The translations under genes were made by a program, and so were the position numbers. The notes under the pieces were generated by a model. It saw only the letters and a program-made list of their open reading frames with translations. It searched no databases and was not told the origin of the DNA. Positions 2,348 through 28,450 of a stretch of 48,046 bases of DNA are shown here, piece after piece. The DNA is from Burkholderiales bacterium (GTDB lineage: Bacteria; Pseudomonadota; Gammaproteobacteria; Burkholderiales; Casimicrobiaceae). The stretch is from the NCBI GenBank assembly GCA_025981645.1, contig JAICXH010000008.1, positions 1-48,046 of the forward strand. The letters are read 5' to 3'. The stretch's first letter is position 1, and each line of letters begins with the position of its first letter.

Positions 2348-2857
2348 CTAGTCGAGCGTGCCGAGGTAATCCGCCTTCCCGAGCTTCACCCCGTTATGCC
2401 GCAGGATGTCGTACGCGGTGGTGACGTGGAAGAAGACGTTCGGCATCACGAACTGGAGGAGATAGTTGACGTCGGTGAACTTGTGCGGCTTGCCCCGCAC
2501 GGGGCGCACGATCTCGCGCGTCGCCGCGCCGTCGAACGCACGCTCGTCGAGCCCGCGCATGTAGTCCACCGTGCGCTCGACTCGCGCAATCAGCTCGTCG
2601 AACGTCTTCTCGGTGTCCTCGTAACTCGGCGGCTCGGCGCCGGAGAGCCTCGCTGCGCCGCCGCGAGCCTGATCGGTCGCGACCTGCACCTGGCGCGACA
2701 ACGGGAACATATCCGGATACAGCCGCGCGTTGACGAACGCGCCTTCGTCGATCTTGTGCTCCTCGGCGTGGCGCTTGGCCTTCTCGAGGACGGCCTTCAG
2801 GTTGTCGAGCGACCTGGCGAGAACGGGAACAGCGAGTTGATAGAGCGGCAGCGGCAT
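2348..2857 (-). CDS. DUF1993 family protein
   Basis: This 169-residue cytosolic protein starts MPLPLYQLAVPVLARSLDNL and contains the features I associate with DUF1993: an N-terminal helix with a run of charged residues, ARLYPDMFPLSRQVQVATDQ, and a C-terminal NVFFHVTTAYDILRHNGVKL segment. The family has a DinB-like four-helix fold, and its biochemical role is not established. The start was chosen at the ATG with GGAGG seven bases upstream. The gene is the last member of the long minus-strand directon, 65 bases after the LpxO-like gene; whether it belongs functionally to the lipid pathway is unknown. Confidence 0.8.
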   Translation of the reverse strand: MPLPLYQLAVPVLARSLDNLKAVLEKAKRHAEEHKIDEGAFVNARLYPDMFPLSRQVQVATDQARGGAARLSGAEPPSYEDTEKTFDELIARVERTVDYMRGLDERAFDGAATREIVRPVRGKPHKFTDVNYLLQFVMPNVFFHVTTAYDILRHNGVKLGKADYLGTLD

Positions 2858-2922
2858 CGTGGCCTCCGGGTGTCTGCGGATTGCGGGTGAGGCGTCGGCG
2901 GCGACAGCGGCCGGCGCGCGGG

Positions 2923-3840
2923 TCAACGGAAGATAAGGTACAACACTCCGCCGAGGATCAGCCACTTCAGCGCGTAGTGCGCGACGACGCTGCGCTTTTT
3001 GATCGCCTTGCCGACGAGGCGCACGCGGTAGACCGCGTTGAAGACGTGGTTCAGCGCGCCGACGCGGTCACCGGGGGCGTTCTCGGTTTGCGACGCGCGG
3101 ATCAGCGTCATCTCCATCAGGTGATTGAGCATCCGCACGACGCGGCTCCTCAGCGGCCGCTCGACGTCGCAGAACAGGATCAGTCGCTGAACGTCGCTCT
3201 TGTTCTCGGCGGTGTGGATGAACGTCTCGTCGAACATCACCGCCTCGCCATCGCGCCAGAAGTACGGCTCGCCGTCGACGACGATGCGGCACGAGTCGGC
3301 GTTGGGCGTGACGAGCCCGAGGTGATAGCGTAGCGAGCCGGCAAAGGGATCGCGGTGCGCGCCGAGCTTGCTACCGGGCGGGAGCAGCGCGAACATCGCC
3401 GCGTTGACGCCCGGAATCGACTGCACAAGCTCGACCGTCTTCGGACACAGCGCTTGCGCCGACGGCAGCGGCGCGTCGTACCACTTGACGTAGAAGCGCT
3501 TCCACCCGGTCTTGAAGAACGAGTTGAACCCGAGGTCGTTGTAGGTCGCCGCGGCCTTGATGCGCCCCTCGCCGAAGAGTTGCAGCGCCTCGGCACGGAT
3601 CGTCTGCCAGTTCTCGGTGAGCGGTTTCAATTCCGGAAAGCGCGCGACATCGACGTATGGCCGGTTGGGCACCGCCGAGAACAGGTACATCAGCGTGTTG
3701 TACGGCGCCATCAGCGACGAGTGATCGGTGAGCTGGCGGAAGAAGCCGTGCCGCACGCGACCGCGGTGATGCACGTACACGGCAGACGCGATGAACGCGT
3801 AGAGCACGATGAACTTCGGCGCGAGGAGGTTCGCGAGCAT
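2923..3840 (-). CDS. lpxO: LpxO-like Fe(II)/2-oxoglutarate lipid A hydroxylase (aspartyl/asparaginyl beta-hydroxylase fold)
   Basis: The 305-residue protein has an N-terminal membrane anchor (LLAPKFIVLYAFIASAVYVH), the charged segment RGRVRHGFFRQLTDHSS, a cytosolic beta-hydroxylase domain and a C-terminal hydrophobic tail ending ILGGVLYLIFR. Likely metal ligands are the His residues in AHRDPFAGSLRYHLGL and FDETFIHTAEN. LpxO enzymes 2-hydroxylate a secondary acyl chain of lipid A at the inner face of the inner membrane, and length and layout fit that subgroup better than soluble Asp hydroxylases. The start is the ATG giving MLANLLAPKF, which aligns with the paralogue at 42067. It lies 11 bases after the AcpS-LpxL fusion gene, so it probably acts on the chain that enzyme transfers. 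The lipid substrate is inferred. Confidence 0.8.
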   Translation of the reverse strand: MLANLLAPKFIVLYAFIASAVYVHHRGRVRHGFFRQLTDHSSLMAPYNTLMYLFSAVPNRPYVDVARFPELKPLTENWQTIRAEALQLFGEGRIKAAATYNDLGFNSFFKTGWKRFYVKWYDAPLPSAQALCPKTVELVQSIPGVNAAMFALLPPGSKLGAHRDPFAGSLRYHLGLVTPNADSCRIVVDGEPYFWRDGEAVMFDETFIHTAENKSDVQRLILFCDVERPLRSRVVRMLNHLMEMTLIRASQTENAPGDRVGALNHVFNAVYRVRLVGKAIKKRSVVAHYALKWLILGGVLYLIFR

Positions 3841-3851
3841 CTTCGTCGCGG

Positions 3852-5174
3852 TCAGGTCGACCTGACTCTCCTGGCGGGTCGGAAGCGCCGGTGCACCCAC
3901 CACCACTGCTCGGGGTGGCGCAGCACCAGCCGCTCGATCGCCGCGTTGCACGCGCGCGTCGTACGCCGGATCGCTTCGCTGGTGTCGTCGCAGTCGACGG
4001 CGGGAACCGGTTCCTCGAAACGCAGCACGTGCGTGCCGTTCGGCTCCCGCCAGCACGCGGCAGGAACGATCGCCGCGCCGGTCGCGAGCGCGAGAATCGC
4101 CAGGCTCTTGAATGTACCCGCCGGTGTGCCGAAGAACTCGACGTCGATGCCGTCGCTGCCGCCGGCGTACTGATCGAACGGAAACACGACGACGTCGCCC
4201 GCTTCGAGCCGGGCGACGATCCGGTCGAGCGAACCGCGCTTGCCGATGACGCCGAATCCTGCGCGGTGGAAGCGCCGCGTGACGAGCCGGTCGAGCCAGC
4301 GCGGCTTGATCGGTCGGCGAACAAAGTGGAAGCGTCCACGCATCTCGGGGTAATGCTGGATGCCGGCGACGGTTGCCACCTCCCAGTTGCCGAAATGGCC
4401 AGTCAGCACCAGCACGCCGCGTTCGCGCTCGAACGCGCTGACGAAGGCGTCGAGGTTGTCGACGCGGACGAGTGCGCGTCGCGCCTCGGTCGACATCGTG
4501 CGAAAGCGCAGGAACTCGGCGAGAAGTTGCGCGAGATGCGCGTAATGCGCCTGCGCGAGGCGGCGGATCTCGTCATCGGGACTCGCTGAACCGAATACGC
4601 GGCGCAGGTTGCCGACGATCACCTGCCGTCGCACCGGAAGGAAGCGATAGAGAATTCTGCCCGTGAGTGGCACGTCGGTCGCGACCGGACGTGCGAGCGC
4701 AACGGCCGATGCGCTCGTGCGGTCGTGCGTGAGCGAGACTGCGATCGACGACAGGCGCGCCTGATCGAGAAGCGCTTGCGCGCGCCGCGTGCAGACGATC
4801 TTCGGCGCCCCGTAGCCGTCGCGTTCGACCGCGAAGTCGGCTGGCTCGATCCTTCCGGCGGCGAGCTCGCGCGGGAAGAGCTTCGCGCAGGCCTCCTTCG
4901 CAGCGAAGCGTGCAGCGAGGCTTGCAAGCCGACCGGGACCGTCGCCGCTGTCGGCGAGCTCGCGCGAAGAGAAGATCCTGCCGAGCTCGCCGGCAGGCGT
5001 TGCCGCGAGCAGGCGTTCGATCCGCGCGATCTCGACGCTGTCGATTCCGCAGCGCGCGCCGCCTGCGGCAACCGCGACACGAGCGTCCGCTGTCTCCGTT
5101 GTTTCCGCGCTCGGAACGCCTGTCTCGTGCCCCGGACTGCGGGCGGCGATCACCGGAGTCGTTGATGCTGTCAT
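3852..5174 (-). CDS. fusion of AcpS-type phosphopantetheinyl transferase and LpxL-type lipid acyltransferase
   Basis: The 440-residue protein has two domains. Residues about 42-162 are an AcpS-like 4'-phosphopantetheinyl transferase: GIDSVEIARIERLL with the Mg-binding Asp45, ARFAAKEACAKLF with Glu94, and SIAVSLTHDRTSASA. Residues about 168-435 are a lysophospholipid/LpxL-HtrB acyltransferase with the catalytic H-x4-E box HFGNWE (His260, Glu265) and the later block VVVFPFDQYAGG. The usual LpxL N-terminal transmembrane helix is absent and its place is taken by the AcpS domain. The first half would activate the cluster ACP with its prosthetic arm and the second would move the finished acyl chain onto a glycolipid acceptor. 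The ATG overlaps the stop of the upstream ketosynthase-like gene by 4 bp. Both catalytic sets look intact. I know of no standard enzyme with this arrangement. Confidence 0.85.
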   Translation of the reverse strand: MTASTTPVIAARSPGHETGVPSAETTETADARVAVAAGGARCGIDSVEIARIERLLAATPAGELGRIFSSRELADSGDGPGRLASLAARFAAKEACAKLFPRELAAGRIEPADFAVERDGYGAPKIVCTRRAQALLDQARLSSIAVSLTHDRTSASAVALARPVATDVPLTGRILYRFLPVRRQVIVGNLRRVFGSASPDDEIRRLAQAHYAHLAQLLAEFLRFRTMSTEARRALVRVDNLDAFVSAFERERGVLVLTGHFGNWEVATVAGIQHYPEMRGRFHFVRRPIKPRWLDRLVTRRFHRAGFGVIGKRGSLDRIVARLEAGDVVVFPFDQYAGGSDGIDVEFFGTPAGTFKSLAILALATGAAIVPAACWREPNGTHVLRFEEPVPAVDCDDTSEAIRRTTRACNAAIERLVLRHPEQWWWVHRRFRPARRVRST

Positions 5175-6457
5175 GGCCCGAGCGCCCGCACGACGAGCGC
5201 GGCATCGGTACCGGCGAAGCCGCGGCAGAGCACGAGCGCGACGTCCCCGGCGACGGTTCGCGTCTCGCGCGACACCGGCAGCCCGGCGCAGGCGGGGTCG
5301 AGCTCGGTGAGGGTCGCGATGCCCGGCACCACCTTCGCGCGGAGCGCGGCGAGGGCGATCGTCGCTTCGACGATGCCCGCTGCGGCGATCAGGTGGCCGA
5401 TCGCCCACTTGAACGCGGTGACGGGCGGGCACGTGGTGCCGAAGACACGCAGGATGGCGCGCGCCTCTGACGCGTCGGACTGCGGCGTACCGTTGCCGTG
5501 CGCGACGATCATCGCGACGTCGGCGCGGTCGAGCCCGGCATCGGCAAGGGCGAGCTCGATGGCGCGTGCGGTACCGTCGCCGTCGTCGCGGATTGCAAGG
5601 AGACCCTTCGCTTCACAAACGTGCCCGCCGCCCAGCACTTCGCCGCGTGCTACGCCGCCACGTGAGGCGAGCGACGCCGGCGTCTCGAGCGCCAGCGCTC
5701 CGGCGCCTTCGCCGAAGACGCTGCCGCTGCGCGCTTGGTCGAACGGCCGCAGCGCATCGGCGGCGAGGAGTCCGCAGCGGTCGTAGTAGAGCACGTTCTG
5801 CGGCTCGATCGGCGTTTCGTGCCCGATCGCGAGCGCGCGATCGGCTTCGCCCTGGGCGAGCGCCTCGGCGGCCTCGATCACCGCGAGCGAGCCGCCGACG
5901 CTGTGGTTCGTGATGCACGCGTTGCTGCCTTTCAGCCGGTTGCGGATGCCGACGTGGCAGAGCACGTTGTTGGGAAGCGTGCGCAATAGCCACATCGGGT
6001 TGACTGTCTCGGCGAGCTTCGCGCCGAACGCCGGAAGCTCGCCGTGCGCCTCGGCGAGGAGCGGCAGGTAGTCGTACTGGTTCTCGAACGCGCCACCGCC
6101 CGAGCCGACGTAGCAGCCGCTGCGGTCGGCGAAGGCGGCCGCGGCGGCCGAGTCGAGCGACACGCGGTGCGCGTCGAAGCCCGCTTCGGCGGCCGCGCGA
6201 TCTCCCGCGTAGATGCCGAAAAAGTCGGTGCGGCGGATGAACTTGTGCAGCTTGCGGTCGTCGACGAGTTCGCGCGCGTTGAAGTCGGTGATCTCCGCTG
6301 CGATCGTTACTGGCCAGTCGCGCGTGTCCCATCCGCCGATCGCGCCGATCGCCGAGCGGCCGGCGACGATCGCCGCAAGCATCGCGTCGGGATTGCGTCC
6401 GAGCCCGCAGACCGCGCCAGCGCCGGCGATGACTGCACGAGGGCGCGAGGTCGTCAC
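5171..6457 (-). CDS. ketosynthase-like chain-length-factor partner lacking the active-site cysteine
   Basis: This 428-residue thiolase-fold protein is clearly related to FabF ketosynthases (VIAGAGAVCGLGRNP at the start, GSVFGEGAGALALE, VAHGNGTPQSDASEA, KWAIGHLIAAAGIVEA). Aligned on the neighbouring ketosynthase, the nucleophile block TACASGG reads TNHSVGG, so the Cys position is His185. The two other catalytic His blocks are kept. A KS-like protein without the Cys next to a complete KS is the hallmark of chain length factors in type II polyketide and aryl polyene systems, where the pair forms a heterodimer and the inactive partner shapes the chain tunnel. It overlaps both neighbours by 4 bp, which fits 1:1 production with the KS. 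The role is inferred from the missing nucleophile. Confidence 0.8.
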   Translation of the reverse strand: MTTSRPRAVIAGAGAVCGLGRNPDAMLAAIVAGRSAIGAIGGWDTRDWPVTIAAEITDFNARELVDDRKLHKFIRRTDFFGIYAGDRAAAEAGFDAHRVSLDSAAAAAFADRSGCYVGSGGGAFENQYDYLPLLAEAHGELPAFGAKLAETVNPMWLLRTLPNNVLCHVGIRNRLKGSNACITNHSVGGSLAVIEAAEALAQGEADRALAIGHETPIEPQNVLYYDRCGLLAADALRPFDQARSGSVFGEGAGALALETPASLASRGGVARGEVLGGGHVCEAKGLLAIRDDGDGTARAIELALADAGLDRADVAMIVAHGNGTPQSDASEARAILRVFGTTCPPVTAFKWAIGHLIAAAGIVEATIALAALRAKVVPGIATLTELDPACAGLPVSRETRTVAGDVALVLCRGFAGTDAALVVRALGP

Positions 6458-7752
6458 GGCGCGTCGACGTGATCGGGGTGGCGAAGCGCCACGCAGCTAT
6501 TGGAGCCGCCGAACCCGAACGAGTTCGAGAGCGTCATCCGCACAGGTTGTCGGCGGGCGTCGCCAACCACGAGGTTCAGGTCGCAATCGGGATCGGGAAC
6601 GTGGTAATTCGCGTTGACCGGCATCGTCGCGCGCTCGATCGCGAGCGCGCAGATCGCGATCTCGACTGCGCCCGCGGCGGCGATCAGGTGGCCCATCGTG
6701 CTCTTCGTCGAGCTGACCGATATACGGTTCGCGTCGCCGCCGAAGACCGCGCGGATTGCCGCGCTCTCGCTGCGATCGTTCATTCCGGTCGAGGTGCCGT
6801 GGGCGTTGATGTAGTCGATGTCTTCCGGATGCGCGCCTGCATCAGCGAGCGCAGCGCGCATCGACTGGATCGGTCCGTCGCCGTCGGGGGGAGAGTCGGT
6901 GATCCGGTAGCTCGACAGCGAGTTCCCGTCGCCGGCGAGTTCGGCGTACACGTGCGCGCCGCGTGCGCGCGCCGACGACCATTCCTCGAGCACCAGGAAG
7001 CCCGCTCCTTCGCCGAGCACGAAGCCGTTGCGCGTCGCGTCGAACGGCCGGCTCGCGCGCTCGGGTGTGTCGTTGTCGGACGAGACCGCGGAGAGGAGAC
7101 AGAAGCCGGCGAGCCCGACCGGGTTCACCATCGAGTCGAAGCCGCCGGCGAGCACGCGGTCGACCGCGCCGCGGCGGATCAGCTTCAACGCCGTGCCGAG
7201 CGCCTGCCCGCCCGACGCGCATGCAGTGTGCACCGACGTCGCGTAGCCGCGGATGCCGAAGCGCCGGGTGAGGAGCGCGACGCCCGCGGTGCTCTGGCTG
7301 CGGCAGAACGCCACCGGGTCGGCGGCCGTATCGTCGTCAAGGAGCGCGTGGGCATCGAGCTCGCCCGCTGGAGCCGAGTGCCGCTGCAGCGCGGCGAGGT
7401 CGCCGAACGCGACACCCATCATGCCGGTGCCGACCGCGCAGCCCCAGCGTTCACTGTCGCCGGGCGTGGGAGCGATCGCCGCATCACGCATCGCCTCCTC
7501 GGCCGCGGCGAGCGCGAAGCGGTGCGAGCGGTTCGCGTACTTGACGAGCTTGTTCGGCGCGGTGATCACCGCTGGATCGAACCCTTTGACTTCGGCGGCG
7601 ATCCGCGTCGGGAAGCCCGACGCGTCGAACGAGGCGATCGGCGCTGCGCCGCTCGTTCCCGCGCAGACCGCCCGCCAGGTCGACGCGGCATCGTTGCCGA
7701 CAGGAGTGACGAGTCCGATGCCGGTGATCGCGACGCGGCGCCTGCCGGTCAT
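6454..7752 (-). CDS. beta-ketoacyl-ACP synthase, FabF type (KS-alpha of the cluster)
   Basis: The 432-residue protein has all catalytic elements of a decarboxylating condensing enzyme: Cys178 in SVHTACASGGQ, His in INAHGTSTGMND, and Lys/His in STKSTMGHLIAAAGAVE, plus the C-terminal SNSFGFGGSNS loop. It elongates acyl-ACP with malonyl-ACP. The start ATG (MTGRRRVAITGIG) was chosen because the family begins here; the longer upstream frame is arginine-rich shadow sequence. It overlaps the following cysteine-less partner by ATGA. It is probably not the housekeeping FabF, because it sits with its own ACP, ketoreductase, dehydratase and enoyl reductase. Confidence 0.9.
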   Translation of the reverse strand: MTGRRRVAITGIGLVTPVGNDAASTWRAVCAGTSGAAPIASFDASGFPTRIAAEVKGFDPAVITAPNKLVKYANRSHRFALAAAEEAMRDAAIAPTPGDSERWGCAVGTGMMGVAFGDLAALQRHSAPAGELDAHALLDDDTAADPVAFCRSQSTAGVALLTRRFGIRGYATSVHTACASGGQALGTALKLIRRGAVDRVLAGGFDSMVNPVGLAGFCLLSAVSSDNDTPERASRPFDATRNGFVLGEGAGFLVLEEWSSARARGAHVYAELAGDGNSLSSYRITDSPPDGDGPIQSMRAALADAGAHPEDIDYINAHGTSTGMNDRSESAAIRAVFGGDANRISVSSTKSTMGHLIAAAGAVEIAICALAIERATMPVNANYHVPDPDCDLNLVVGDARRQPVRMTLSNSFGFGGSNSCVALRHPDHVDAP

Positions 7753-7780
7753 TGCACATCCTCGCGAAGGGCGAGCGTGC

Positions 7781-8659
7781 TCACTGTGCGGCTCCGATCT
7801 CGACGCGCGCGGTCGCGACGAGGCGCGCGTCGGTACGCGCCGAAAGCATCGCGCGCAACACGGCGCCGCCGGGGGCAGCCTCGGCCACGTCGGGCTTTCC
7901 CTCGGCGGCGATGCCGGCGAGCTCGACATCGAGATCGACGCGCTGACCGGGCTCGATGAACGAGCGCATCTTGACGTGGGTCACCCTGATCGGATGCGGC
8001 GCGGCGCCTGCCAGCTCCGGCGCCCCGGCCGCGCAGTCGAGTGCCAGCCGCAGCTCGGTGTCGAGGAGCAGCGTCGCAGGAAATACCGCACGGCGAGGGA
8101 AATGATCGGCGAAGAAGGGCGCGTCGCACGGCACGGCCAGCGACGCGCTGCGCCTCTTCCCGGGAACGTCGGCAGTGATCGTCACCGGCAGCGCGGCGAT
8201 GCCGCAAAAGCGCCCTTCCGGTGCGCCGCCGTCGCGCAGGAGCGCAAGACGCTCGCGCAGCGCATCGGGTGCGTCGAACTCGGCGACCGGCAGCATCGGC
8301 CCGAGGCAGTCGACGAGCTCGATGACCCGACGCGAACCGACCGACGCGCGTCCGTCGTACGCGACGGCGTCGTCGTCGCACTCGTGGAGCTCTACTTCGA
8401 GCTCCAGGCGATCGCCCGGATGCGCATCGCCGCGAAAGCGCGTTTCCGTTGCGAGCGCTGCGACCGGCCGGCCGCGGAAATCGATCCGATCCATCGCCAC
8501 CCAAGCGGCGAGCTGGCCGACCGCCTCGGCGACGAGACACGACGGAAAGACGTCGACCCCGGCAGGGACGGCAAACGTCGCGTGGGCGCGCTTGCCCGCC
8601 TCGAAGCGGTCGATGCGGTCGACGAACGAGTAGGCGGCGTAGACGGGGTCAGGTCTCAT
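7781..8659 (-). CDS. double-hotdog 3-hydroxyacyl-ACP dehydratase
   Basis: The 292-residue protein looks like two fused FabZ/FabA hotdog folds. In the N-terminal half the segment VFPSCLVAEAVGQLAAW keeps the FabZ acid (Glu45), but the position of the catalytic His is Val31. In the C-terminal half FFADHFPRRAVFPATLLLD keeps the His (His186), while the Glu position is Asp200. FabZ and FabA active sites are built from a His of one subunit and an acid of the other, so the two half sites would make one composite site. It would dehydrate the 3-hydroxyacyl chain on the cluster ACP. The ATG at MRPDPVYAAY is used; its first codons come from an inverted repeat. A TTG 21 bases upstream is an alternative start. 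Confidence 0.75.
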   Translation of the reverse strand: MRPDPVYAAYSFVDRIDRFEAGKRAHATFAVPAGVDVFPSCLVAEAVGQLAAWVAMDRIDFRGRPVAALATETRFRGDAHPGDRLELEVELHECDDDAVAYDGRASVGSRRVIELVDCLGPMLPVAEFDAPDALRERLALLRDGGAPEGRFCGIAALPVTITADVPGKRRSASLAVPCDAPFFADHFPRRAVFPATLLLDTELRLALDCAAGAPELAGAAPHPIRVTHVKMRSFIEPGQRVDLDVELAGIAAEGKPDVAEAAPGGAVLRAMLSARTDARLVATARVEIGAAQ

Positions 8660-8692
8660 CGACTGCCTGGCAAAAGGCAAGACCTGACCCCG
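8644..8692. repeat. REP-like inverted repeat at the acp/dehydratase junction
   Basis: A perfect 13-bp inverted repeat, CGGGGTCAGGTCT and AGACCTGACCCCG, flanks a 23-base centre that itself holds a small TGCC...GGCA pairing. GGGGTCAGGTCT-type arms are, as I remember, common intergenic palindromes in proteobacterial genomes and are often linked to REP-associated transposases. It lies one base beyond the acp stop and supplies the start codon and first codons of the dehydratase gene. Confidence 0.7.
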
Positions 8693-8693
8693 G

Positions 8694-9110
8694 TCAGGCC
8701 TCTTTCTGCGCGCGCACGACGAGCTTGCAGAACGTCGTCGGCGTGAAGAGTCGCGGAATGTCCGCGACCTTCATCGGCGTCTTGAAGCGCGCGGCCGGCA
8801 CCTCGGACAGGTAGGACTTGAGCTGCGCGAGCCCCTTGTCGGTGACGATGCCGCCCTGCTCGAACTCGGCATCGGGAAGGTCACCGCGGGCGTTCTCGAC
8901 GATCTTGCCGCGCGGGATCTTGATCTTGAACGCGCGCTCGAGCCTGAACACCATGTCGAGGAAATCGATCGACTCGGCGTCGAGCCCCTCGATCAGCGAC
9001 ACGTCCGGCTTGATGTCCGTGACGTCGCAGCCGAGCGCGTCGGCCATCGTCTCGGCGACCTTCGGAAACACCGCATCGATCTCCTGCTGGGTCACTGCAA
9101 TCTCGGCCAT
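8694..9110 (-). CDS. acyl carrier protein of the cluster, AcpXL-like with C-terminal extension
   Basis: The 138-residue acidic protein has the phosphopantetheine attachment motif at Ser47 in GLDAESIDFLDMVFRLERAF followed by KIKIP. The DFLD-x-VF...IKIP pattern is closer to my memory of rhizobial AcpXL than to housekeeping AcpP (DSLDTVEL). Standard ACPs have about 80-95 residues; here about 45 extra residues follow the four-helix region (from about residue 90, ending FCKLVVRAQKEA). The ACP carries the growing chain between the cluster enzymes and is probably charged by the AcpS domain of the fusion protein. The ATG at MAEIAVTQ has GGGAG eight bases upstream; a TTG further up overlaps the fabG stop. 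Confidence 0.85.
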   Translation of the reverse strand: MAEIAVTQQEIDAVFPKVAETMADALGCDVTDIKPDVSLIEGLDAESIDFLDMVFRLERAFKIKIPRGKIVENARGDLPDAEFEQGGIVTDKGLAQLKSYLSEVPAARFKTPMKVADIPRLFTPTTFCKLVVRAQKEA

Positions 9111-9124
9111 GGGCACCACTCCCT

Positions 9125-9883
9125 TCAATCGAATTTGAATCCGCCATCGACGTGGAACACCTCGCCGGTGACATAGGAGGCGTAATCCGACGCCAGGAAC
9201 CAGACCGCGTTCGCGACGTCCTCGGCGCTGCCGACGCGCCGCATCAGGATCCTCGCCTTCACCTCGTCGCCGGCGAGGTCGCGCACCGCTTGCGACATCT
9301 CGGTGTCGATGACGCCGGGCGCGACTGCATTGACGCGAATCTTCCGCGGCGCGAGCTCCACGGCGAGCGCACGCGTGAATGCCTCGATGGCGCCCTTGCT
9401 TGCCGCGTAATTGGTCTGTCCGCGGCCGCCCTTGCTGCCGGCCACCGAGCTCAGGTTGACGATCGCACCTGCGCGCTGCATCACCATGTACGGCGCCACG
9501 GCTCGCGTCGTGTTGAACACGCCGCCGACGTTCGTGTCGAGCACCGTCGCCACGTCGTCGTCTGTGAGCGCGGTGAGCGGATTGTCGCGGATCACCCCTG
9601 CGTTGTTGATCAGCACGTCGATGCGCCCTGTCTCGTCGGCGAGCTTTTCGACCGCCTGCACGCAGGCGGCGCTGTCGCGTACGTCGACGCGCTCGGCGTG
9701 CACGTGGTGGCCGGCGGCATGCATCGATTGCACGACCTCCTGCGCGGCTTCGTCGTTGCCGCGATAGAAGAACGCGACGCGTGCACCTTCGCCCGCGAAG
9801 GTCTCGACGATCGCTCGGCCGATTCCGCGGCTGCCCCCGGTCACGAGCACCGATTTGCCGGCGAGCCCCGACGCCGTCTTCAT
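9125..9883 (-). CDS. 3-oxoacyl-ACP reductase, FabG type
   Basis: This 252-residue classical short-chain dehydrogenase has the NADPH loop VLVTGGSRGIGRAIVE, the NNAG motif, catalytic Ser in NLSSVAGSKGG, the Tyr-x3-Lys box NYAASKGAIEAFTRALAVEL, and the C-terminal HVDGGFKFD. It reduces 3-oxoacyl-ACP to 3-hydroxyacyl-ACP in the elongation cycle. The ATG overlaps the stop of the upstream enoyl reductase gene by 4 bp, and the acp ATG follows 14 bases after its stop. Position between acp and the enoyl reductase gives it a clear role in this cluster, although the family also contains many other alcohol dehydrogenases. Confidence 0.88.
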   Translation of the reverse strand: MKTASGLAGKSVLVTGGSRGIGRAIVETFAGEGARVAFFYRGNDEAAQEVVQSMHAAGHHVHAERVDVRDSAACVQAVEKLADETGRIDVLINNAGVIRDNPLTALTDDDVATVLDTNVGGVFNTTRAVAPYMVMQRAGAIVNLSSVAGSKGGRGQTNYAASKGAIEAFTRALAVELAPRKIRVNAVAPGVIDTEMSQAVRDLAGDEVKARILMRRVGSAEDVANAVWFLASDYASYVTGEVFHVDGGFKFD

Positions 9884-10635
9884 CCGGAGATCGCGAAGCC
9901 GCCGTCGACCACCAGCGTGTGGCCGTTGATCATCGCCGCCTCCGGCAGGCACAGGAGGTAGACCGCGCCGGCGACGTCGCCGGGTGTCAGCACCGGACCC
10001 GCCGGCGTGCGTCGCGCGAAGTCGGCGAGGAGCTCCGCGCGATTCGGGAAATACGCGACGGCGTCGGTGTCGACCACTCCGGCGCTCACCGTGTTGACGC
10101 GGATGCCGCGCGGACCGAGCTCCTGCGCGAGCGCACGCACCAGCGCTTCCAGCGCCGCCTTCGATGCGCCGATGAAGCCGTAGTTCGGCATCGCACGCTG
10201 CGCGCCGAGGCTCGACATCGCGATGATCCGTCCGCCGTCCTTCATCATCGGCGCAGCGTGCTGGGCAAGCAGGTCGATCGCGAGGGCATTGGTTTCGAGG
10301 CACCAGCGCCAGTGTTTCAGCCCCATCTCCATGACGGGTTTCAGCACACCAGACGCCGCATTGCTGACGACGATGTCGAGGCGGTCGAAATGCTCGCGCA
10401 GCGCGTCAAACATCTCGTCGACGCTCGCCGGGATGCCGACGCTTCCCTGCACGGCGAGCGCCCGGCGACCATGCTCGCGCAGCTCGGCGCAAAGCGCCTC
10501 GGCCTCGTCGTGGCTGTTGTAATAGTTGACAACGATGTCGGCACCGGCGCTGGCGAGCTTCTTCGCGATCGCACGGCCGATGCCGCGGGCGCCGCCGGTC
10601 ACCAGCGCAACCTGCCCTTCGAGCACACCGGTCAT
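9880..10635 (-). CDS. fabL: enoyl-ACP reductase, FabL type
   Basis: The 251-residue SDR protein starts MTGVLEGQVALVTGGARGIG. It matches Bacillus subtilis FabL, as I remember it, in several diagnostic stretches: NAASGVLKPVMEM, HWRW, NYGFIGASKAALEAL, VDTDAVAYFPNR and TPAGPV. The active site spacing is Tyr152-x6-Lys159, the pattern of enoyl reductases, not the Tyr-x3-Lys of ketoreductases. It should saturate the trans-2-enoyl-ACP each cycle, which separates this cluster from aryl polyene systems. The start is uncertain: ATG codons two codons apart (10641 and 10635) have no clear ribosome binding site. It overlaps fabG by ATGA. Confidence 0.8.
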   Translation of the reverse strand: MTGVLEGQVALVTGGARGIGRAIAKKLASAGADIVVNYYNSHDEAEALCAELREHGRRALAVQGSVGIPASVDEMFDALREHFDRLDIVVSNAASGVLKPVMEMGLKHWRWCLETNALAIDLLAQHAAPMMKDGGRIIAMSSLGAQRAMPNYGFIGASKAALEALVRALAQELGPRGIRVNTVSAGVVDTDAVAYFPNRAELLADFARRTPAGPVLTPGDVAGAVYLLCLPEAAMINGHTLVVDGGFAISG

Positions 10636-10662
10636 GGCCATCGCGCGCAAAAGGACCGTATT

Positions 10663-11772
10663 TTACCCGGCTGGCGACGCGACCGCCGCCGGTGCGTTTT
10701 CGCCGTCGCGCATCCGCGCGGCCCGCACCAGGCGCTGCGCTTCGAGGCACCAGTGGCGCTTGATGCTGTACCAGACGTCGGCCGTCCAGAGCACGTGCCG
10801 CTGCGCCTCTTCGGGAAGCGTCGACGGATCCTCGTGTCCATCCGGGGTCCATGCGTTGATCCACCTGCGCACGGCGAGATCGCGCGGCAGCGACGCCGTC
10901 AGCGGCACGAAGAGGTGGCTGTAGCTGTCGGGAAGCACGATGTTGCGCACGTGCGCCGTCCCCGTGGCGCGATAGCGCTCGCTGTCCCCCGGGAAGTTCC
11001 ACGCGACGAGGTCGACGCCAAGCGAGAAGCCGGTGAAGTCGTCGACGGTGTCCGGAATGTCCTGCAGGCGGTCGATCATCGGCCACTGGTTGGGAAGCAG
11101 GAACGCGGCACCGCCCGCCCCGACCGCGCTCGCGTAGGAGACCGACAGCCCGATCACCGGTCGCGGGTGCCCCGTGTAGGGGTCGACGATCGTCGAGCGC
11201 GCTTCGAACTTGTCCGACCGCGGATCGAACACGTCGAGCGAGCTCCCGAAATCCCCGGCGAGGTCCTGCAGCACGCGCACCGCCTGCATACCTCCCTGGC
11301 TGTGGCCGATGAGCATCGGTCGCAGGCCGCTGCGCTCGTACTCCCACGCGACGATCCCGGCGATCTTCGCGCTTTCGTCATAGGGGCTGTACGACCAATC
11401 GCCGCTTTCAGGATCGCGGATCGCCGACTCGGGGTAACCCATGCGGGTGAGGAAGATCCCGAACGACTTCATCATGAGATAAGCCGGAAAAATACCGCCG
11501 TGCAGGAGAATCACGCGCGGCGCGGGCGCCTTCGCGAGCACGTCGCGCACGTCCGCATCGGAGAGGTGATCGGGATCGAGCGCGAGGAGGCGCTCCTGCA
11601 CGGCCGGTGGCGGCAAGGCGGCGAACGGGTCGACGCGCGCGGACGCCGGCGCCGTCCCGGACTCCGCCGGAAGCCCCGCGCATCCGGCGAGCCCGATCAC
11701 GGCGGCGACGAAGAATGCGGCGACCCGGGTGGCGCGGGCCATCGCTGCGGCGATTCTGCTGGCGGGAGTCAT
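10663..11772 (-). CDS. outer-envelope lipoprotein alpha/beta hydrolase (lipase-like)
   Basis: The 369-residue protein has a lipoprotein signal peptide (RVAAFFVAAVIGLAGCAGLP, lipid-modified Cys31) and an alpha/beta hydrolase core: oxyanion segment VILLHGGIFP, nucleophile elbow MLIGHSQGGMQAV, and a later DSYSHLFVPLT that may contain the catalytic His. It is probably anchored in the outer membrane facing the periplasm and may hydrolyse or transfer an acyl ester. Its ATG overlaps the stop of the acyltransferase gene upstream by 4 bp, and the enoyl reductase gene follows 27 bases later, so it is part of the lipid directon. The substrate cannot be read from sequence. Confidence 0.75.
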   Translation of the reverse strand: MTPASRIAAAMARATRVAAFFVAAVIGLAGCAGLPAESGTAPASARVDPFAALPPPAVQERLLALDPDHLSDADVRDVLAKAPAPRVILLHGGIFPAYLMMKSFGIFLTRMGYPESAIRDPESGDWSYSPYDESAKIAGIVAWEYERSGLRPMLIGHSQGGMQAVRVLQDLAGDFGSSLDVFDPRSDKFEARSTIVDPYTGHPRPVIGLSVSYASAVGAGGAAFLLPNQWPMIDRLQDIPDTVDDFTGFSLGVDLVAWNFPGDSERYRATGTAHVRNIVLPDSYSHLFVPLTASLPRDLAVRRWINAWTPDGHEDPSTLPEEAQRHVLWTADVWYSIKRHWCLEAQRLVRAARMRDGENAPAAVASPAG

Positions 11773-13052
11773 CGCAGCGCGCGGATGCGACCGGCTACCT
11801 CCTCCCACATGGCGTCGACGCTCGATCGCGAGAAGGCTGCACTGCGGAAGGAAATGCCGGCACACGCGGCGCCGCCCGCGGTCGTCGCCGCCAGCACCAT
11901 CGGAGCGAGCGGGCCGGTCGGCACGCCCCGCAGATAGCCTGGCGCCGCCGACCCCGGCGGGCGCCACAGCGCATCGACGTTGAGCGTCGACGTGCCCGCG
12001 TTGACCGGATAGCCCTTCGCGTACACGCTCATCCGCTGGCGAGGAGTCTGGAAGCGGCCGATGACGCGGTCGACGCGCATGGCGAGGAGCCCGGCGAGAT
12101 AGAGATGCTCGCGCTTGATGCGTGCGGTATCGCGATGGAGGTCGCGCGCGAGCGCCTCGAGCGTGATTCCGGGAGGAACCGGATGCGAAACGCGGAACGA
12201 GCCGAGGAATTGACCGAAGGCATCGCGCGCGGCATCGCCGTGGATCTCACGCAGGTTCATGACCGACGCGGCTGCGAGCTCGCGCCTGCGCGAAGCGCCA
12301 AGGCGCTCGCGGGTCTGCGTGTCGCGGGCGAGCAGGAGCAGCGCGAGCAGCAGGTCGTTGAACGTCACGCCCCAGCGTTTTGCGGTGGTCGCGAGCGTGG
12401 CGACGCAGGCCGCATCGATGCGATGCAGCGCGAAGCCATTGTGGCCCTCTTCGATGTCCTGGTAGCGCGGGCGCAACGTTCGCCGGCAGCTTCGCGCCAT
12501 CGCCGGCATCCGCGCGACGGCGCGCGCGGTGCGCAGCGGATGGCGCAGGAACAGCGGAAGATGTGTCGGCGGGTAGAGCTGCGGCGGCGCACTCGGTCGG
12601 GGTGCCCCGGCGAGGCGGTCAACGATGCGGTTCATCAGCCCGACGATCGAGTCGCCGCCGGCGATGAAATGGTCGTACGCGACGCCGAGGAACCCGCCCT
12701 GTGCGTCCGCGACCACGAAGAAGCGGAACGGATCGAGCATTCCGTCCGGCGCGAACGCGGTGTTCATCTGGCGCTCGATCTCGCGCTCGACGCATGCGTC
12801 TCCGCAACCTGCAATCCGCTCGATCGGGGTCTTTCCGGCGTGTGCGCGCCACACGTAGCGGTGCCGTCTTCGGTCGAGTTCGAGGAGCCCGAGGCCCAGC
12901 TCGACTCGCTCGGCGCCGATCGCCGCCGCGAGCGCGTCGTCGTCGGGCACAACCGGAAGGCGCAGCGCATGCACCGCCGTGTAAGGGTGGTGTTCGCGCC
13001 ACTCGAGCATCGTCGACTGGAACACGTTGAGCCGGCCCGGCAGGCGCTTCAT
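11769..13052 (-). CDS. condensation/wax-ester-synthase-like acyltransferase
   Basis: The 427-residue protein begins MKRLPGRLNVFQSTMLEWRE and resembles the CoA-dependent acyltransferase superfamily (condensation domains, wax ester synthases, PapA-type enzymes). The usual HHxxxDG active-site motif appears in altered form as VAYDHFIAGGDSIVGLMNR: the second His is kept, the first is Asp, and the Asp/Gly positions are shifted. A later SVMNLREIHGD and NAGTSTLNVDALW fit the second half of the fold. It may esterify the acyl chain made by the cluster to an alcohol or amine. It overlaps the lipoprotein hydrolase gene by 4 bp. Because the active-site motif deviates, catalytic activity is less certain than the fold. 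Confidence 0.6.
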   Translation of the reverse strand: MKRLPGRLNVFQSTMLEWREHHPYTAVHALRLPVVPDDDALAAAIGAERVELGLGLLELDRRRHRYVWRAHAGKTPIERIAGCGDACVEREIERQMNTAFAPDGMLDPFRFFVVADAQGGFLGVAYDHFIAGGDSIVGLMNRIVDRLAGAPRPSAPPQLYPPTHLPLFLRHPLRTARAVARMPAMARSCRRTLRPRYQDIEEGHNGFALHRIDAACVATLATTAKRWGVTFNDLLLALLLLARDTQTRERLGASRRRELAAASVMNLREIHGDAARDAFGQFLGSFRVSHPVPPGITLEALARDLHRDTARIKREHLYLAGLLAMRVDRVIGRFQTPRQRMSVYAKGYPVNAGTSTLNVDALWRPPGSAAPGYLRGVPTGPLAPMVLAATTAGGAACAGISFRSAAFSRSSVDAMWEEVAGRIRALR

Positions 13053-13116
13053 CGTGCCGGCCCGCGCCGCTGCGCCGGACGAACGAGGCGACTCCCGGCG
13101 CGCAATGCGCGCGCCG

Positions 13117-13725
13117 CTATCTGAATCGCGGCAGGAAACGGCCGGTGTGTGCGGCATAGTCGCGCCAGGCGTCGCCGTGCACCGAGGCGAGCTGCATCTC
13201 CTCGGCACGTGCCTTGTAGTTGATCCAGCCGACGTGCACGACTGCCAGCGCGATCATCGCGGGCGTCGGCAGGACGACCGCCGTCGCGGCCATCATCAGC
13301 ATGCTGCACGCGTAGATCGGGTGCCGGACGCGGCTGAATGGCCCATCGGTGATCAGCGAGGTCTTGCGTGCGCTGATGTCCATTCTCCATTCGGGGCCCA
13401 TGCGGCTCCAGCAGCGCAGCGTCACCGCGAGGCACGCGCCGGCGACGAGCGCGGCGACCCAGCGCAGCAGTATCCAGTTGCCGGACGTTGCAAATTCCGG
13501 AACCGCCAGCGCGCCGCCCGCGCGTCCGATCGCGAGCCACGGCAGCGCACACCATCCGGCGACCACCGGAACGACGACGAGCCACAGCATCCGTTCGGAT
13601 CGCCGTTCGGGGATCAGGCCGACGCTGCGGCGCTGACGGTGGCGGATGCGCACCGCCATCGTGCCGACACGCAGCCAGTACGCGGAGACGATCAGCGCCA
13701 CGGCGACGAGCGGGACATCGCGCAT
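13117..13725 (-). CDS. isoprenylcysteine carboxyl methyltransferase (ICMT/PEMT-like) family membrane protein
   Basis: The 202-residue integral membrane protein has four to five hydrophobic segments and the ICMT/PEMT signature near the C-terminus: LITDGPFSRVRHPIYACSML, then INYKARAEEMQL...YAAHTGRFLPRF. Members transfer a methyl group from S-adenosylmethionine to lipid or prenyl substrates inside the membrane, although many bacterial ones are uncharacterised. It stands 64 bases upstream of the acyltransferase gene and 42 bases downstream of the thiolase, in the same direction. Methylation of the lipid made by this cluster, for example as a methyl ester, is a reasonable guess only. Confidence 0.75.
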   Translation of the reverse strand: MRDVPLVAVALIVSAYWLRVGTMAVRIRHRQRRSVGLIPERRSERMLWLVVVPVVAGWCALPWLAIGRAGGALAVPEFATSGNWILLRWVAALVAGACLAVTLRCWSRMGPEWRMDISARKTSLITDGPFSRVRHPIYACSMLMMAATAVVLPTPAMIALAVVHVGWINYKARAEEMQLASVHGDAWRDYAAHTGRFLPRFR

Positions 13726-13767
13726 CAGCGATCGGCGTGCAGCGAGCGGGTGTGAACGCCTGTGAAG

Positions 13768-14958
13768 TCAGAGCCGCTCGATGATGCCAGCAATCCCCTG
13801 GCCGCCGCCGATGCACATCGTGATGAGCCCGTAGCGTTTGCCGGTTCGGGCGAGCTCGTACATCGCCTTGATCGTGAGGATGCAGCCGGTGGCGCCGATC
13901 GGATGGCCGAGCGCGACCGCGCCTCCGTTCGGATTGACGCGGGCCGGATCCATGCCGAGCTCCTTGCTGACGGCGATCGCCTGCGCAGCGAATGCCTCGT
14001 TCGATTCGATAACGTCGATGTCGGCGAGCTTCAGCCCAGCCTTGGTAAGTGCGCTCTTGACCGCACTGACGGGCCCCAGCCCCATGATCTTCGGATCGAT
14101 GCCGGCGTGCCCGTAGGCGACGAACCGTGCCATTGGCTTTGCACCGGCACGCTTCGCTGCCTCGGCTTCCATCAGCACGACCGCAGCCGCGGCATCGTTG
14201 ATGCCGGAGGCGTTGCCTGCGGTGACCGTGCCGTTCTCCTTCGCGAACACCGCCTTCAGCTTGGCCATCCCTTCGAGCGTCGCATCCGCCCGGACGTGCT
14301 CGTCGGTGTCGAACGATACCGGACCCTTGCGGCTCTTGACCTCGATCGGCAGGATCTGCGACTTGAAGCGGCCCTCCGCGATCGCTGCTGCAGCACGGCG
14401 ATGACTCTCGACGGCAAATGCGTCCTGCTGGTCGCGCGTCACCTCGCACTTCTTCGCGACATTCTCCGCGGTGACGCCCATATGTACCGTGTCGAACGGA
14501 TCGGACAGCGCGCCGACCATCATGTCCAGCACCTTGGCGTCGCCCATCCGGGCGCCCCAGCGTTCGCTGGGGATCGAATAGGACGCCCGGCTCATGCTCT
14601 CGGCGCCGCCGCCGACCGCGGCGTCGATGTCACCGAGCCGGATGTATTGCGCGGCGCTGACGATCGCCTGCATTCCGCTGCCGCAGAGCCGGTTGACGGT
14701 GAGCGCACCGCTCGAGTGCGGGAGCCCGCCGTTGATCGCCGCGACGCGCGAGATGTACATGTCCTTCGGCTCGGAATGGATCACATTGCCGATCACGCAC
14801 TGGCCGATCTGCTGCGGATCGACCTCCGCGCGCGCCACCGCCTCACGGACGACGCGGGCGGCAAGGTCGCTCGGAGCGACGTCCTTCAGCGAACCGCCAT
14901 AGTCTCCGATCGCCGTGCGCACGCCGCTGACGATCACCACTTCGCGCTGACTGGCCAT
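13768..14958 (-). CDS. bktB: acetyl-CoA C-acyltransferase (beta-ketothiolase, BktB-like)
   Basis: The 396-residue thiolase has Cys in NRLCGSGMQAIVSAAQYIRL, His in LGHPIGATGC, and the second Cys in MCIGGGQGIAGI. The sequence follows Cupriavidus BktB as I remember it over its whole length (REVVIVSGVRTAIGDYGGSL, SEPKDMYISRVAAINGG, FDTDEHVRADATLEGMAKL). It condenses or cleaves beta-ketoacyl-CoA; in Cupriavidus it supplies 3-ketoacyl-CoA for polyhydroxyalkanoate. It is first in the minus-strand run of lipid genes, 42 bases before the ICMT-like gene. It could feed a starter unit to the cluster, or simply be a degradation enzyme upstream of it. Confidence 0.92.
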   Translation of the reverse strand: MASQREVVIVSGVRTAIGDYGGSLKDVAPSDLAARVVREAVARAEVDPQQIGQCVIGNVIHSEPKDMYISRVAAINGGLPHSSGALTVNRLCGSGMQAIVSAAQYIRLGDIDAAVGGGAESMSRASYSIPSERWGARMGDAKVLDMMVGALSDPFDTVHMGVTAENVAKKCEVTRDQQDAFAVESHRRAAAAIAEGRFKSQILPIEVKSRKGPVSFDTDEHVRADATLEGMAKLKAVFAKENGTVTAGNASGINDAAAAVVLMEAEAAKRAGAKPMARFVAYGHAGIDPKIMGLGPVSAVKSALTKAGLKLADIDVIESNEAFAAQAIAVSKELGMDPARVNPNGGAVALGHPIGATGCILTIKAMYELARTGKRYGLITMCIGGGQGIAGIIERL

Positions 14959-27048: not shown

Positions 27049-27088
27049 CGGCGAACCCGAGGTCAGCGCCGCCCGTCGTCGCGCGAAG

Positions 27089-27256
27089 CTAAGCCGACGC
27101 CGCGTGCGCGGCGATGCCAGGAGGCCCGACCAGATAGTGCGGCCCGCCACCTCCCATCCCGCCGCCGCCCATCGTGGCGCAGCTCGAAACGGTGCCGATT
27201 GCGAAGGTCAGTCCTACCGCGACGATCGCGCGAAGCCTGCGCAGAATCCGATTCAT
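27089..27256 (-). CDS. small putative lipoprotein
   Basis: The predicted product has 55 residues: a basic start (MNRILRRLRAIVAV), a hydrophobic core (GLTFAIGTVSSC) with a possible lipobox Cys, then a glycine-rich stretch MGGGGMGGGG and an Ala-rich end. A good ribosome binding site (GGAGG) is placed five bases before the second of two adjacent ATG codons, which supports real translation. I know of no defined family. It is convergent with the flavoprotein gene. Confidence 0.6.
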   Translation of the reverse strand: MNRILRRLRAIVAVGLTFAIGTVSSCATMGGGGMGGGGPHYLVGPPGIAAHAASA

Positions 27257-27382
27257 CATCGCCTCCGTCGATTGGATGCGATAGGGAAAACAGGCCGATC
27301 GCTCGGATATTCCGGAAATCGACCAGTGAATCGCTTCGCCGCGGCGGGCTTCGCCCGGGCGTCGGGAAGGGCGCACGTGAGA

Positions 27383-28450
27383 TCAGCTTCCGATGCGCTG
27401 ACTCATCGGCGGCAGCGAGCGCTCATCTGCCGCAGCGGCGGCGCGCTCTGCCGGCGTGACGACCGCCATGACGTACGAACTCCGCGTCGGCACGTCCATC
27501 TGCGACAGCGCGCTCCGCGCGAGGAGCAGCGCCACCGCGGCGCTTGCGCTTGCCGCGAACGGGATCGCGACCAGTGCGACGCTCGACGGAATGTGCGTGA
27601 ACACCATCGTGTTGACGAGGCCGAAGCGTCGAGCGAGCGGCGCCGCCACAAGAAAGCACGCCCCGGCAAGGAGACCGGTGGCGAAGAACAGCGTGCCGAG
27701 CTGGGCCGGACCGATGCCGAAGCGCTGCACGAACCAGGGGCCCAGCATCGACTGCACGATCAGTCCGCCTGCGAATGCATCGACGCTGACGAGCGCGGCG
27801 AGGGCAAACACGATGCGGCGCGATTCGCGCAGCGGTGACCGGGGCACCGGGCCGGCGACGTCGGTCGCGCCCACCGGCAAGCGCCGGTACAGACCCTACG
27901 TCGCCAGGCCCAGCACCGCATAGAGCACGAATGTCGACAGGAGCGCAGTCGGCAGCGGCAGACGCAGCCGCTGCGACAGCAGCTCGGGTGCGCCGGCGAG
28001 AAGCGCGCCGACCGCGCCGCAGACGGCACCGACCAGGCTGTAACGCGCGAACGCGTGTGTGCGGCGTTCGGGCGTCACCGCGTCGGAGAGCACGGCGTGC
28101 TCGAGCGGCAGGAACACGCTGACATCGCCGCTCGAAGGATTGAGCGTTCCGACGAACGCGACGACGACGAGCGGCCACAACGCCTGCACGCCGGCAAACG
28201 CAATGCCGGTCGCGAGCATCAGCAGCGCGGCGCCGAGGAGTGCGCGACGGTGCCCGATTCGGGCCGCGCCGACGCCGACCGCAAGGGAAAGCACCGCCGA
28301 GCCGACGAGGGTAGCCGTCGCGATCAGGCCGACGCGCAGCGGCGAATACCCGAGCGCCAGCAGGTACAGCGGCAGCGTCAGGCTGATGCAGCCATCGCCG
28401 AGGGCACGCAGGCCGCGTCCGGCGAGGACGAGCGACACGGTCCGACTCAT
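27383..28450 (-). pseudogene. MFS transporter interrupted by an in-frame amber codon and truncated at the C-terminus
   Basis: One continuous reading frame encodes a major facilitator protein but carries a TAG at 27896-27898. The first 184 residues (MSRTVSLVLAGRGLRALGDG, RALLGAALLMLATGIAF, PERRTHAFARYSLVGAVCGA) are the N-terminal six-helix half. After the TAG the same frame continues GLYRRLPVGATDVAG and resumes with helices ALVSVDAFAGGLIVQSMLG, TLFFATGLLAGACFLVAAP and a DVPTRSSYVMAVVTPAERAA loop. It then ends in a short unrelated tail (SLPPMSQRIGS), about two helices short of a 12-helix MFS protein. Two independent defects suggest decay. A good ribosome binding site (AGGAG) is still present, 36 bases after the cyclase gene. 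Confidence 0.75.

Follow-up and report, generated by a model that had tools for sequence, protein, structure and literature searches.

A conserved seven-gene fatty-acid synthesis core with an AcpS-LpxL fusion in a Burkholderiales bacterium, probably dedicated to a special acyl chain of lipid A

This study followed up a first-pass annotation of a 48,046-nucleotide stretch of DNA from a Burkholderiales bacterium of the Casimicrobiaceae (GenBank assembly GCA_025981645.1, contig JAICXH010000008.1, positions 1 to 48,046 of the forward strand; hereafter the window), which corresponds to contig C28 of an assembly of 2.76 Mb in 154 contigs at 87% completeness. Among 13 neighboring genes of the window, seven were found to form a core that recurs in a single order across several phyla: an enoyl-ACP reductase (FabL), a FabG-like ketoreductase, a long acyl carrier protein (ACP), a double-hotdog dehydratase, a beta-ketoacyl-ACP synthase (KS), a KS-like partner, and a fusion of a holo-ACP synthase (AcpS) to a lipid A-type acyltransferase (LpxL). 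This core is likely the functional unit, and it is predicted to be a dedicated type II fatty acid synthase with its own carrier and off-loading enzyme, probably delivering a very long saturated chain to lipid A. The first-pass annotation had likewise read the locus as a dedicated type II system, equipped with an enoyl reductase and with an acyltransferase of the lipid A type, and this outline stands; its choice of unit, its nearest kin and its use of the reductase as a distinguishing mark are revised below.

The extent of the unit was judged from relatives. Among 119 genomes searched for the fusion, the window's own included, full-strength matches were obtained in 20 of 21 congeners (the fusion being divided between contigs in two), in all seven genomes of genus g3, in three of four of genus g5, and in one genome of another family; within this sample, no match was found in the remaining genera of the window's family. 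Twenty loci were then fetched, 19 from the window's family and one from family f11, and the seven core genes were present and collinear in all 20. The hydrolase and WS-like acyltransferase genes were present in each of the 19 same-family loci (the latter in pieces in L039), and the ICMT-family methyltransferase gene was present in 17, the other two loci stopping at a contig edge. The LpxO-like gene, which adjoins the fusion in the window, lies near the core in 10 of the 19; the thiolase gene lies beside it in three, with three of the 19 loci stopping before its position, and the DUF1993 gene also in three, some loci being cut off before this could be judged. In the f11 locus, the core is not accompanied by the WS/hydrolase/ICMT set. 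The complete 13-gene operon that had been proposed as the functional unit was rejected because thiolase and DUF1993 each occur in just three of these 19 relatives; its seven-gene core holds, whereas thiolase and DUF1993 are local neighbors and probable bystanders, and LpxO and the WS/hydrolase/ICMT set are lineage accessories outside the core.

The same arrangement was recovered far outside the family. When named genome contigs were scanned with an ACP alignment, at least 517 relatives were confirmed, and the best 80 loci were kept; all counts of named loci refer to these best 80 of at least 517, several of which are the same loci as reached through other genomes. By record title, they comprise 30 Legionellales, 24 Betaproteobacteria (including metagenome bins titled Bordetella parapertussis and Methylopumilus), 16 Verrucomicrobia, 3 Gammaproteobacteria, 3 'Proteobacteria', 2 Synechococcus, 1 NC10 and 1 Sulfomarinibacter. 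The core genes that are present follow one order in 80 of 80 loci, and 68 loci hold at least five of them. Both the FabL and LpxL ends are visible in 51 loci, of which 30 carry all seven genes and 21 lack FabG only; 19 of these 21 are Legionellales by title, the others being L085 and L097. In 42 loci, the sequence around the ACP gene extends for at least 4 kb on the upstream side and 7.5 kb on the downstream side (full flanks). Of these, 19 carry all seven genes, 18 lack FabG only and 5 lack more; an LpxL gene was found in 40 and FabL in 38, FabL not being beside the core in L119, L123, L126 and L128. The arrangement of the seven core genes is therefore far from chance, being collinear in 20 of 20 fetched relatives and following one order in 80 of 80 named loci; for the core genes, the gene order that the first-pass annotation had suggested seeking in other genomes was found there.

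In the two Synechococcus loci (L093 and L102; Synechococcus sp. CS-1331 and GFB01), the GC content is 0.54-0.64 over the core and mostly 0.68-0.75 around it, some flank windows being lower, and the two assemblies have syntenic flanks. Combined, the GC dip and the syntenic flanks point to a probable transfer into picocyanobacteria more than to contamination. No plasmid was matched by the ACP at E 1e-20, and ten proteins from the flanks in other phyla (aldehyde dehydrogenase, QueC, MFS, methyltransferase, sulfatase and others) showed no common theme.

The core encodes the activities of an elongation cycle with their catalytic residues kept, and it does not encode starter or malonyl loading. Ser47 of the ACP is invariant (12 of 12), and its C-terminal extension is conserved, with helices at residues 91-100, 115-121 and 124-137 in a structural model with a predicted local distance difference test score (pLDDT) of 88.8. 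The second-best sequence match of the ACP in the PDB is 2kw2, the specialized ACP RPA2022 of Rhodopseudomonas palustris; a structure search returned ACP folds only, none of them at E 0.001 or better. The active site of FabZ follows a His/Glu rule. Across 103 open reading frames (ORFs) for the dehydratase, taken one per locus with some being the same gene twice, a Glu is kept in the N-terminal half in 98% and a DHFP motif in the C-terminal half in 100%, and the model (pLDDT 87.5) contains two hotdogs; the protein probably forms one composite FabZ-type site, with the Glu contributed by the N-terminal half and the His by the C-terminal half.

The two KS-type proteins differ in their active sites. 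The KS, which scores 433.1 bits on TIGR03150 (under the cut-off of 493.75), has a complete Cys-His-Lys-His set in 22 of 22 sampled proteins. In the KS-like protein, the His, Lys and His are kept in 22 of 22, and the nucleophilic Cys is retained only by five sampled Verrucomicrobia (L076, L121, L131, L135 and L139), the other 17 having Ser, Ala, Thr or Gly at this position. The KS-like protein is most likely a partner subunit of the KS that, in most lineages, would be unable to condense. A match to the Mad-family malonyl-ACP decarboxylases was considered and dropped, as these are hotdog proteins according to the available passages of PMC8666670.

In the fusion, the holo-ACP synthase domain spans approximately residues 42-160 and the acyltransferase domain residues 172-432, the latter with an H-x4-E motif of the family's H-x4-D/E type. 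Among 81 fusion ORFs, some of which are the same gene in overlapping loci, the AcpS part keeps its Asp in 81 and the K and E of its KE motif in 78 and 79, and the LpxL part keeps its His in 81 and its Glu in 79; the fusion reported by the first-pass annotation is real, with both active sites kept. The AcpS domain scores 51.8 bits on TIGR00556 (cut-off 45.35) and falls under the stricter TIGR00516 (47.2 versus 59.8 bits). An LpxL gene is visible in 60 of the 80 named loci, fused to AcpS in 30 and unfused in 30. The fused form was seen in 15 of 15 Betaproteobacteria (in L133, AcpS was matched in part only), 8 of 10 Verrucomicrobia, both Synechococcus, the NC10 locus, 2 of 3 Gammaproteobacteria and 2 of 3 'Proteobacteria'; the 30 unfused genes are those of all 25 Legionellales and of 5 other loci. 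One or more further AcpS genes were found in 19 of 19 searched genomes with the fusion, so the fused AcpS looks dedicated; three searched Legionella-family genomes have one AcpS each in all. A second association of AcpS with an LpxL-family gene, without fusion, occurs in the window's genome, where an AcpS gene on C30 (26325-26555, minus strand) adjoins and diverges from another LpxL-family gene (27084-27908, plus strand); the divergent pair is also found in its congeners G002, G005, G007, G014, G018, G019 and G025, and the pair of G008 is convergent.

Together, these features suggest how the pathway may operate, the enzyme activities, chain length and acceptor all being predictions. The AcpS half of the fusion would arm the long ACP, on which the KS, with its mostly non-condensing KS-like partner, would elongate the chain. 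FabG, the double-hotdog dehydratase and FabL would run the full reductive cycle, so the product would be saturated. Once complete, the acyl group, which as in Legionella most likely belongs to the C26-C30 class, would be transferred by the LpxL half from the ACP to a secondary position on lipid A. LpxO may 2-hydroxylate the chain in the window's family; this step was part of the first-pass interpretation, and the LpxO-like gene is indeed present, but the step depends wholly on that one non-core gene. The WS/hydrolase/ICMT set may act on the chain there as well, and trimming, capping or some other modification is offered as a guess.

The genomic context of the fusion is consistent with lipid A as the acceptor. 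LpxK was found in 38 of 39 genomes, in a search that left out L076: 35 of 36 carriers (the exception being draft G029) and three of three relatives without the fusion (G011, G022 and G024). The genomes contain from one to four LpxL-family matches each, and the fusion is the only such match in G1076 (NC10), G1074 (a Synechococcus assembly) and the draft bins G001 and G042; all four have LpxK. These four genomes argue against the product being destined for another lipid, such as a wax ester, a glycerolipid or a hydrophobic ester, with either the WS-like protein as the main off-loader or the LpxL-like domain acting on a non-lipopolysaccharide glycolipid. Such a destination could explain the constancy of the WS-like, hydrolase and ICMT genes in the window's family, and it agrees with the best PDB sequence match of the fusion, a phosphatidylinositol mannoside acyltransferase ranked ahead of a lipid A acyltransferase. 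However, outside the family, the trio stands beside the core only in the Verrucomicrobia L121 and L139, whereas an LpxL gene accompanies the core in nearly all full-flank loci. Another lipid as the end product is therefore considered unlikely, if the least improbable of the alternatives, and lipid A is preferred as the acceptor.

The proposed chain length draws on the Legionella family (f92, taken as Legionellaceae, the family of G395, to which all 143 genomes listed in its order belong). The long ACP was found in 135 of these 143 genomes; the eight without it are two 0.5-Mb genomes, three assemblies of 67-75% completeness, and G1095, G1136 and G1184 (93-99%). The Legionellales-type core of FabL, long ACP, double-hotdog dehydratase, KS, KS-like protein and LpxL is orthologous to that of the window, in the same order and on the same strand, and the ACP is 49-63% identical to the window's in 30 loci. 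The Legionellales clusters differ in that FabG was not found in the cluster, LpxL lacks AcpS in 25 of 25, the KS-like protein has Ala for Cys in the three sampled, and FabL, like FabG, is missing beside the core in the full-flank loci L119, L123 and L126. In some Legionella-family loci (L100 and L068), FabL lies 2 to 3.5 kb from the ACP, with long ORFs between them, mostly on the opposite strand. The nearest relatives of the window's cluster are thus the orthologous clusters of Legionellales, Verrucomicrobia and others, and the rhizobial and aryl polyene clusters with which it had first been compared do not hold this place. We take lpg0359, lpg0361 and lpg0362 to be genes of this cluster in Legionella. 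In the available passages of PMC13200437, lpg0359 is one of three ACPs and lpg0361 and lpg0362 are FabB, with no special role attached to them there.

The hydroxy fatty acids of Legionella lipid A bear ester-linked 28:0(27-oxo) and related long-chain acids, and 27-oxo-octacosanoic acid is said to occur generally in all species studied (PMC7867332, in the passages available). The same passages also describe eight non-hydroxylated acids of 14 to 20 carbons in the lipid A of Legionella pneumophila, which would fit a special acyl chain of ordinary length (approximately C14-C20, perhaps branched), and the KS belongs to the general FabF family, with no sequence feature fixing the chain length. A separate synthase with its own ACP, dehydratase and reductases is nevertheless hard to explain if the housekeeping one suffices, and the functional analogue in rhizobia makes C26-C34 chains (PMC11901934, in part). 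A chain of ordinary length is therefore judged improbable, and a very long chain is preferred. A five-gene cluster of the rhizobial type is said, in the part of PMC5613085 available, to occur in all bacteria with such lipid A; as to AcpXL, that universal statement does not fit the Legionella family, where no AcpXL over the cut-off was found in 10 genomes (G395, G641 and the eight named Legionella G1084-G1091).

Several observations weigh against the proposed delivery of a very long chain to lipid A by a widespread, dedicated unit. Chain length cannot be read from sequence, and the very-long-chain link comes by way of the Legionella version, which is unfused, has no cluster FabG, and misses FabL in three loci with about 10 kb upstream covered; the long ACP is absent from three near-complete genomes of that family. 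Most carriers have one or two LpxL-family genes besides the fusion, which could accordingly serve a different acceptor, and G011, which has no fusion, has one LpxL-family gene, which is against strict replacement. The top fold matches of the dehydratase are mostly double-hotdog thioesterases, with the mycobacterial dehydratase 4v12 lower, so the dehydratase call comes from the FabA/FabZ sequence match and the motif. The fusion is also rare: even draws with strict cut-offs, the window's own genome being counted each time, gave 3 matches among 300 genomes at the level of the order, 8 among 369 at that of the class and 1 among 398 at that of the phylum. Only one of the seven other class matches (G369) extends over the whole fusion, the rest covering the LpxL part, and the AcpS part of G369 is not registered by PF01648. 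Finally, two Verrucomicrobia loci lack much of the core, L090 being without the dehydratase, KS, KS-like and LpxL genes and L128 without FabL, KS, KS-like and LpxL; both hold the long ACP with one to three other core genes and are covered for 10 kb downstream, and they may represent broken, rearranged or different arrangements.

The coordinates of the 13 genes are collected in Table 1. The first-pass annotation had described 13 same-strand genes, and all of them were recovered in place, with family searches in Pfam and NCBIfam upholding their domain assignments. From thiolase to DUF1993, the intergenic gaps are 42, 64, -4, 27, -4, 14, 34, 28, -4, -4, 11 and 65 bp, all gene starts being those chosen in the present analysis; no gap thus exceeds the 65 bp previously given, and the five 4-bp overlaps that had been counted are reduced to four.

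Table 1. Positions, strand and supporting matches of the 13 genes of the window, listed from thiolase to DUF1993
Gene product and standing	Position	Strand	Support
Thiolase, BktB-type; probable bystander	13768..14958	-	NF006552 685.5 bits (cut-off 565)
ICMT/PEMT-family membrane methyltransferase; accessory	13117..13725	-	PF04191, PF04140
WS/DGAT-PapA-like acyltransferase (WS-like); accessory	11769..13052	-	PF16911 19.5 bits (cut-off 30), TIGR02946 20 bits (cut-off 309.95)
Putative lipoprotein alpha/beta hydrolase; accessory	10663..11772	-	GHSQGG motif and signal
Core 1: enoyl-ACP reductase FabL (SDR, Y-x6-K)	9880..10635	-	NCBIfam equivalog NF005975 344.2 bits (cut-off 328)
Core 2: 3-ketoacyl-ACP reductase, FabG-like	9125..9883	-	FabG subfamily NF009466 253.7 bits (cut-off 222); 4-bp overlap with FabL
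Core 3: long ACP, 138 residues	8694..9110	-	PF00550 34.2 bits; Ser47; helical C-terminal extension
Core 4: double-hotdog, probable 3-hydroxyacyl-ACP dehydratase	7781..8659	-	PF07977 56.0 bits, two stretches
Core 5: beta-ketoacyl-ACP synthase KS	6454..7752	-	NF005589 413.2 bits (cut-off 387); Cys-His-Lys-His complete
Core 6: KS-like partner	5171..6457	-	Ser for the nucleophilic Cys; His/Lys/His present
Core 7: AcpS-LpxL fusion, 440 residues	3852..5174	-	PF01648 (ACPS) 37.5 bits (cut-off 25) and PF03279 150.3 bits (cut-off 22.3), in one frame
LpxO-type dioxygenase; accessory	2923..3840	-	Best family by far NF033391, 451.2 bits over positions 1-296 of 297 (under the equivalog cut-off of 500); PF05118 164.3 bits
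DUF1993 protein; probable bystander	2348..2857	-	PF09351 206.6 bits

Among the accessory proteins, sets of 31 WS-like, 52 hydrolase and 27 ICMT ORFs were compared, overlapping loci included. The WS-like assignment is weak, both scores falling under the curated cut-offs, and a PDB sequence search with this protein gave no match. The hydrolase has a G-x-S-x-G motif in 52 of 52 ORFs and a lipobox-like motif in 31 of 52, and it gave no Pfam, NCBIfam or PDB sequence match; relatives often have two copies of it around the WS-like gene. Directly past the cluster, a PEP-CTERM protein gene lies at 1405-2211 of the window, and a large NAD-dependent glutamate dehydrogenase gene lies upstream at 15492-20315, as it does upstream of thiolase in the near relatives L037 and L038.

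On a broader reading, which is about as likely as not, the cluster may represent a second route to the very long acyl chains of lipid A, one that evolved on its own and reached several phyla through both descent and transfer. It would then account for the origin of the 28-carbon oxo acids in Legionella and would provide membrane-spanning lipid A anchors in many Verrucomicrobia, Betaproteobacteria, NC10 and freshwater Synechococcus, with the KS-like protein as a new kind of partner (its nucleophile mostly lost and its His, Lys and His kept) and with the AcpS-LpxL protein both arming the carrier and unloading it. If true, a long-used chemical marker of Legionella gains candidate genes, and uncultured bacteria of fresh water and soil can be predicted, in a way open to test, to have an unusual lipid A. 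The fusion itself links carrier activation to off-loading within one protein. No description of the cluster was found among the titles listed in searches of open-licence PubMed Central papers.

Compared with the LpxL and LpxM acyltransferases, the fusion shares the PF03279 family and the H-x4-E motif and differs by its N-terminal AcpS domain and its place in a tree of 48 LpxL-type proteins, of which the root is unknown and many forks are open. A branch with a support of 100 sets E. coli LpxL and LpxM, other ordinary LpxL-type genes and rhizobial LpxXL apart from the cluster proteins, two other Legionella tucsonensis LpxL proteins and the long-branched aryl polyene transferase. The cluster LpxL proteins do not form one clade, as the two further L. 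tucsonensis proteins mix in, and all three LpxL-family matches of L. tucsonensis lie on the cluster side of this branch.

The aryl polyene locus of E. coli CFT073 also combines a KS, a chain-length-factor partner, an ACP, a dehydratase, a ketoreductase and an acyltransferase, and the FabG-like protein of the window reaches 227 bits on a flexirubin SDR model (under its cut-off of 340). However, the window has one ACP and not two, and none of its 13 genes encodes the acyl-CoA synthetase, MMPL transporter, LolA-type protein or glycosyltransferase of the CFT073 locus. Further, the enoyl reductase, which would destroy a polyene, is encoded in all 20 fetched relatives and in most full-flank loci, and ApeO and ApeR fall outside both KS clades, albeit on long branches. 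Aryl polyene identity was therefore rejected on comparison with the CFT073 locus, and a polyene or pigment-like product is the least probable of the alternatives. A redundant second copy of ordinary fatty-acid synthesis with no special product, as the resemblance of the single genes to Fab enzymes might suggest, is also very improbable, given that the KS, KS-like and LpxL proteins fall in distinct clades, the ACP has its own conserved extension, and one gene order is kept across phyla.

The closest functional parallel is the rhizobial cluster acpXL-fabZXL-fabF2XL-fabF1XL-adhA2XL-lpxXL, in which adhA2XL is a dehydrogenase (PMC11901934, in part) and which is required for very long chains on lipid A, according to the passages available of PMC11901934 and PMC5613085. 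The logic is the same, with a special ACP, a dehydratase, a KS pair, a dehydrogenase and an LpxL-family transferase, and the window likewise carries co-directional genes for an ACP, a dehydratase, two KS-type proteins and an LpxL-family transferase. The enoyl reductase had been presented as a difference from rhizobia, but no clear difference results, since the rhizobial cluster has adhA2XL (PMC11901934, in part) and a FabG-like gene lies by the KS pair in four of eight fetched rhizobial loci; the gene was accordingly rejected as a distinguishing mark. The real differences are FabL in place of adhA2XL, the fused double hotdog, the fusion of AcpS to LpxL, and an ACP, KS pair and transferase of other families and other clades.

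The suggested comparison with AcpXL, LpxXL and the rhizobial KS proteins spoke against membership in their families. The window's ACP scores 40.6 bits on the AcpXL family NF005079 (cut-off 83), and AcpXL was over the cut-off in 0 of 29 non-rhizobial genomes and in both rhizobial controls, the sub-threshold matches including the cluster ACP. The KS scores 337 bits against a cut-off of 629 on PRK06501 and 55 against 320 on PRK06519, and the KS-like protein scores 123.9 bits on PRK06501 with no PRK06519 match at E 0.01, whereas the rhizobial KS genes pass these cut-offs; the fusion scores 103.2 bits on PRK06553 (LpxXL; cut-off 273) and the rhizobial gene 477. In a tree of 66 KS-type proteins, built by a quick method with support from the Shimodaira-Hasegawa-like approximate likelihood ratio test only, the KS (100), KS-like (98), rhizobial KSb (100) and rhizobial KSa (100) proteins occupy separate branches; ApeC, ApeO, ApeR and FabB form long branches of unsure place, ApeC being too divergent. 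In all eight first (partner) KS proteins of rhizobia, the Cys is replaced by Glu and neither His303 nor the Lys is kept, whereas the KS-like protein of the present cluster keeps its His, Lys and His. Membership in the rhizobial acpXL-lpxXL cluster was rejected on the missed cut-offs, the separate tree branches and the AcpXL search, and the seven-gene core is best read, from its sequence relationships, as a putative analogue, of separate evolutionary origin, of the rhizobial pathway for very long chains on lipid A.

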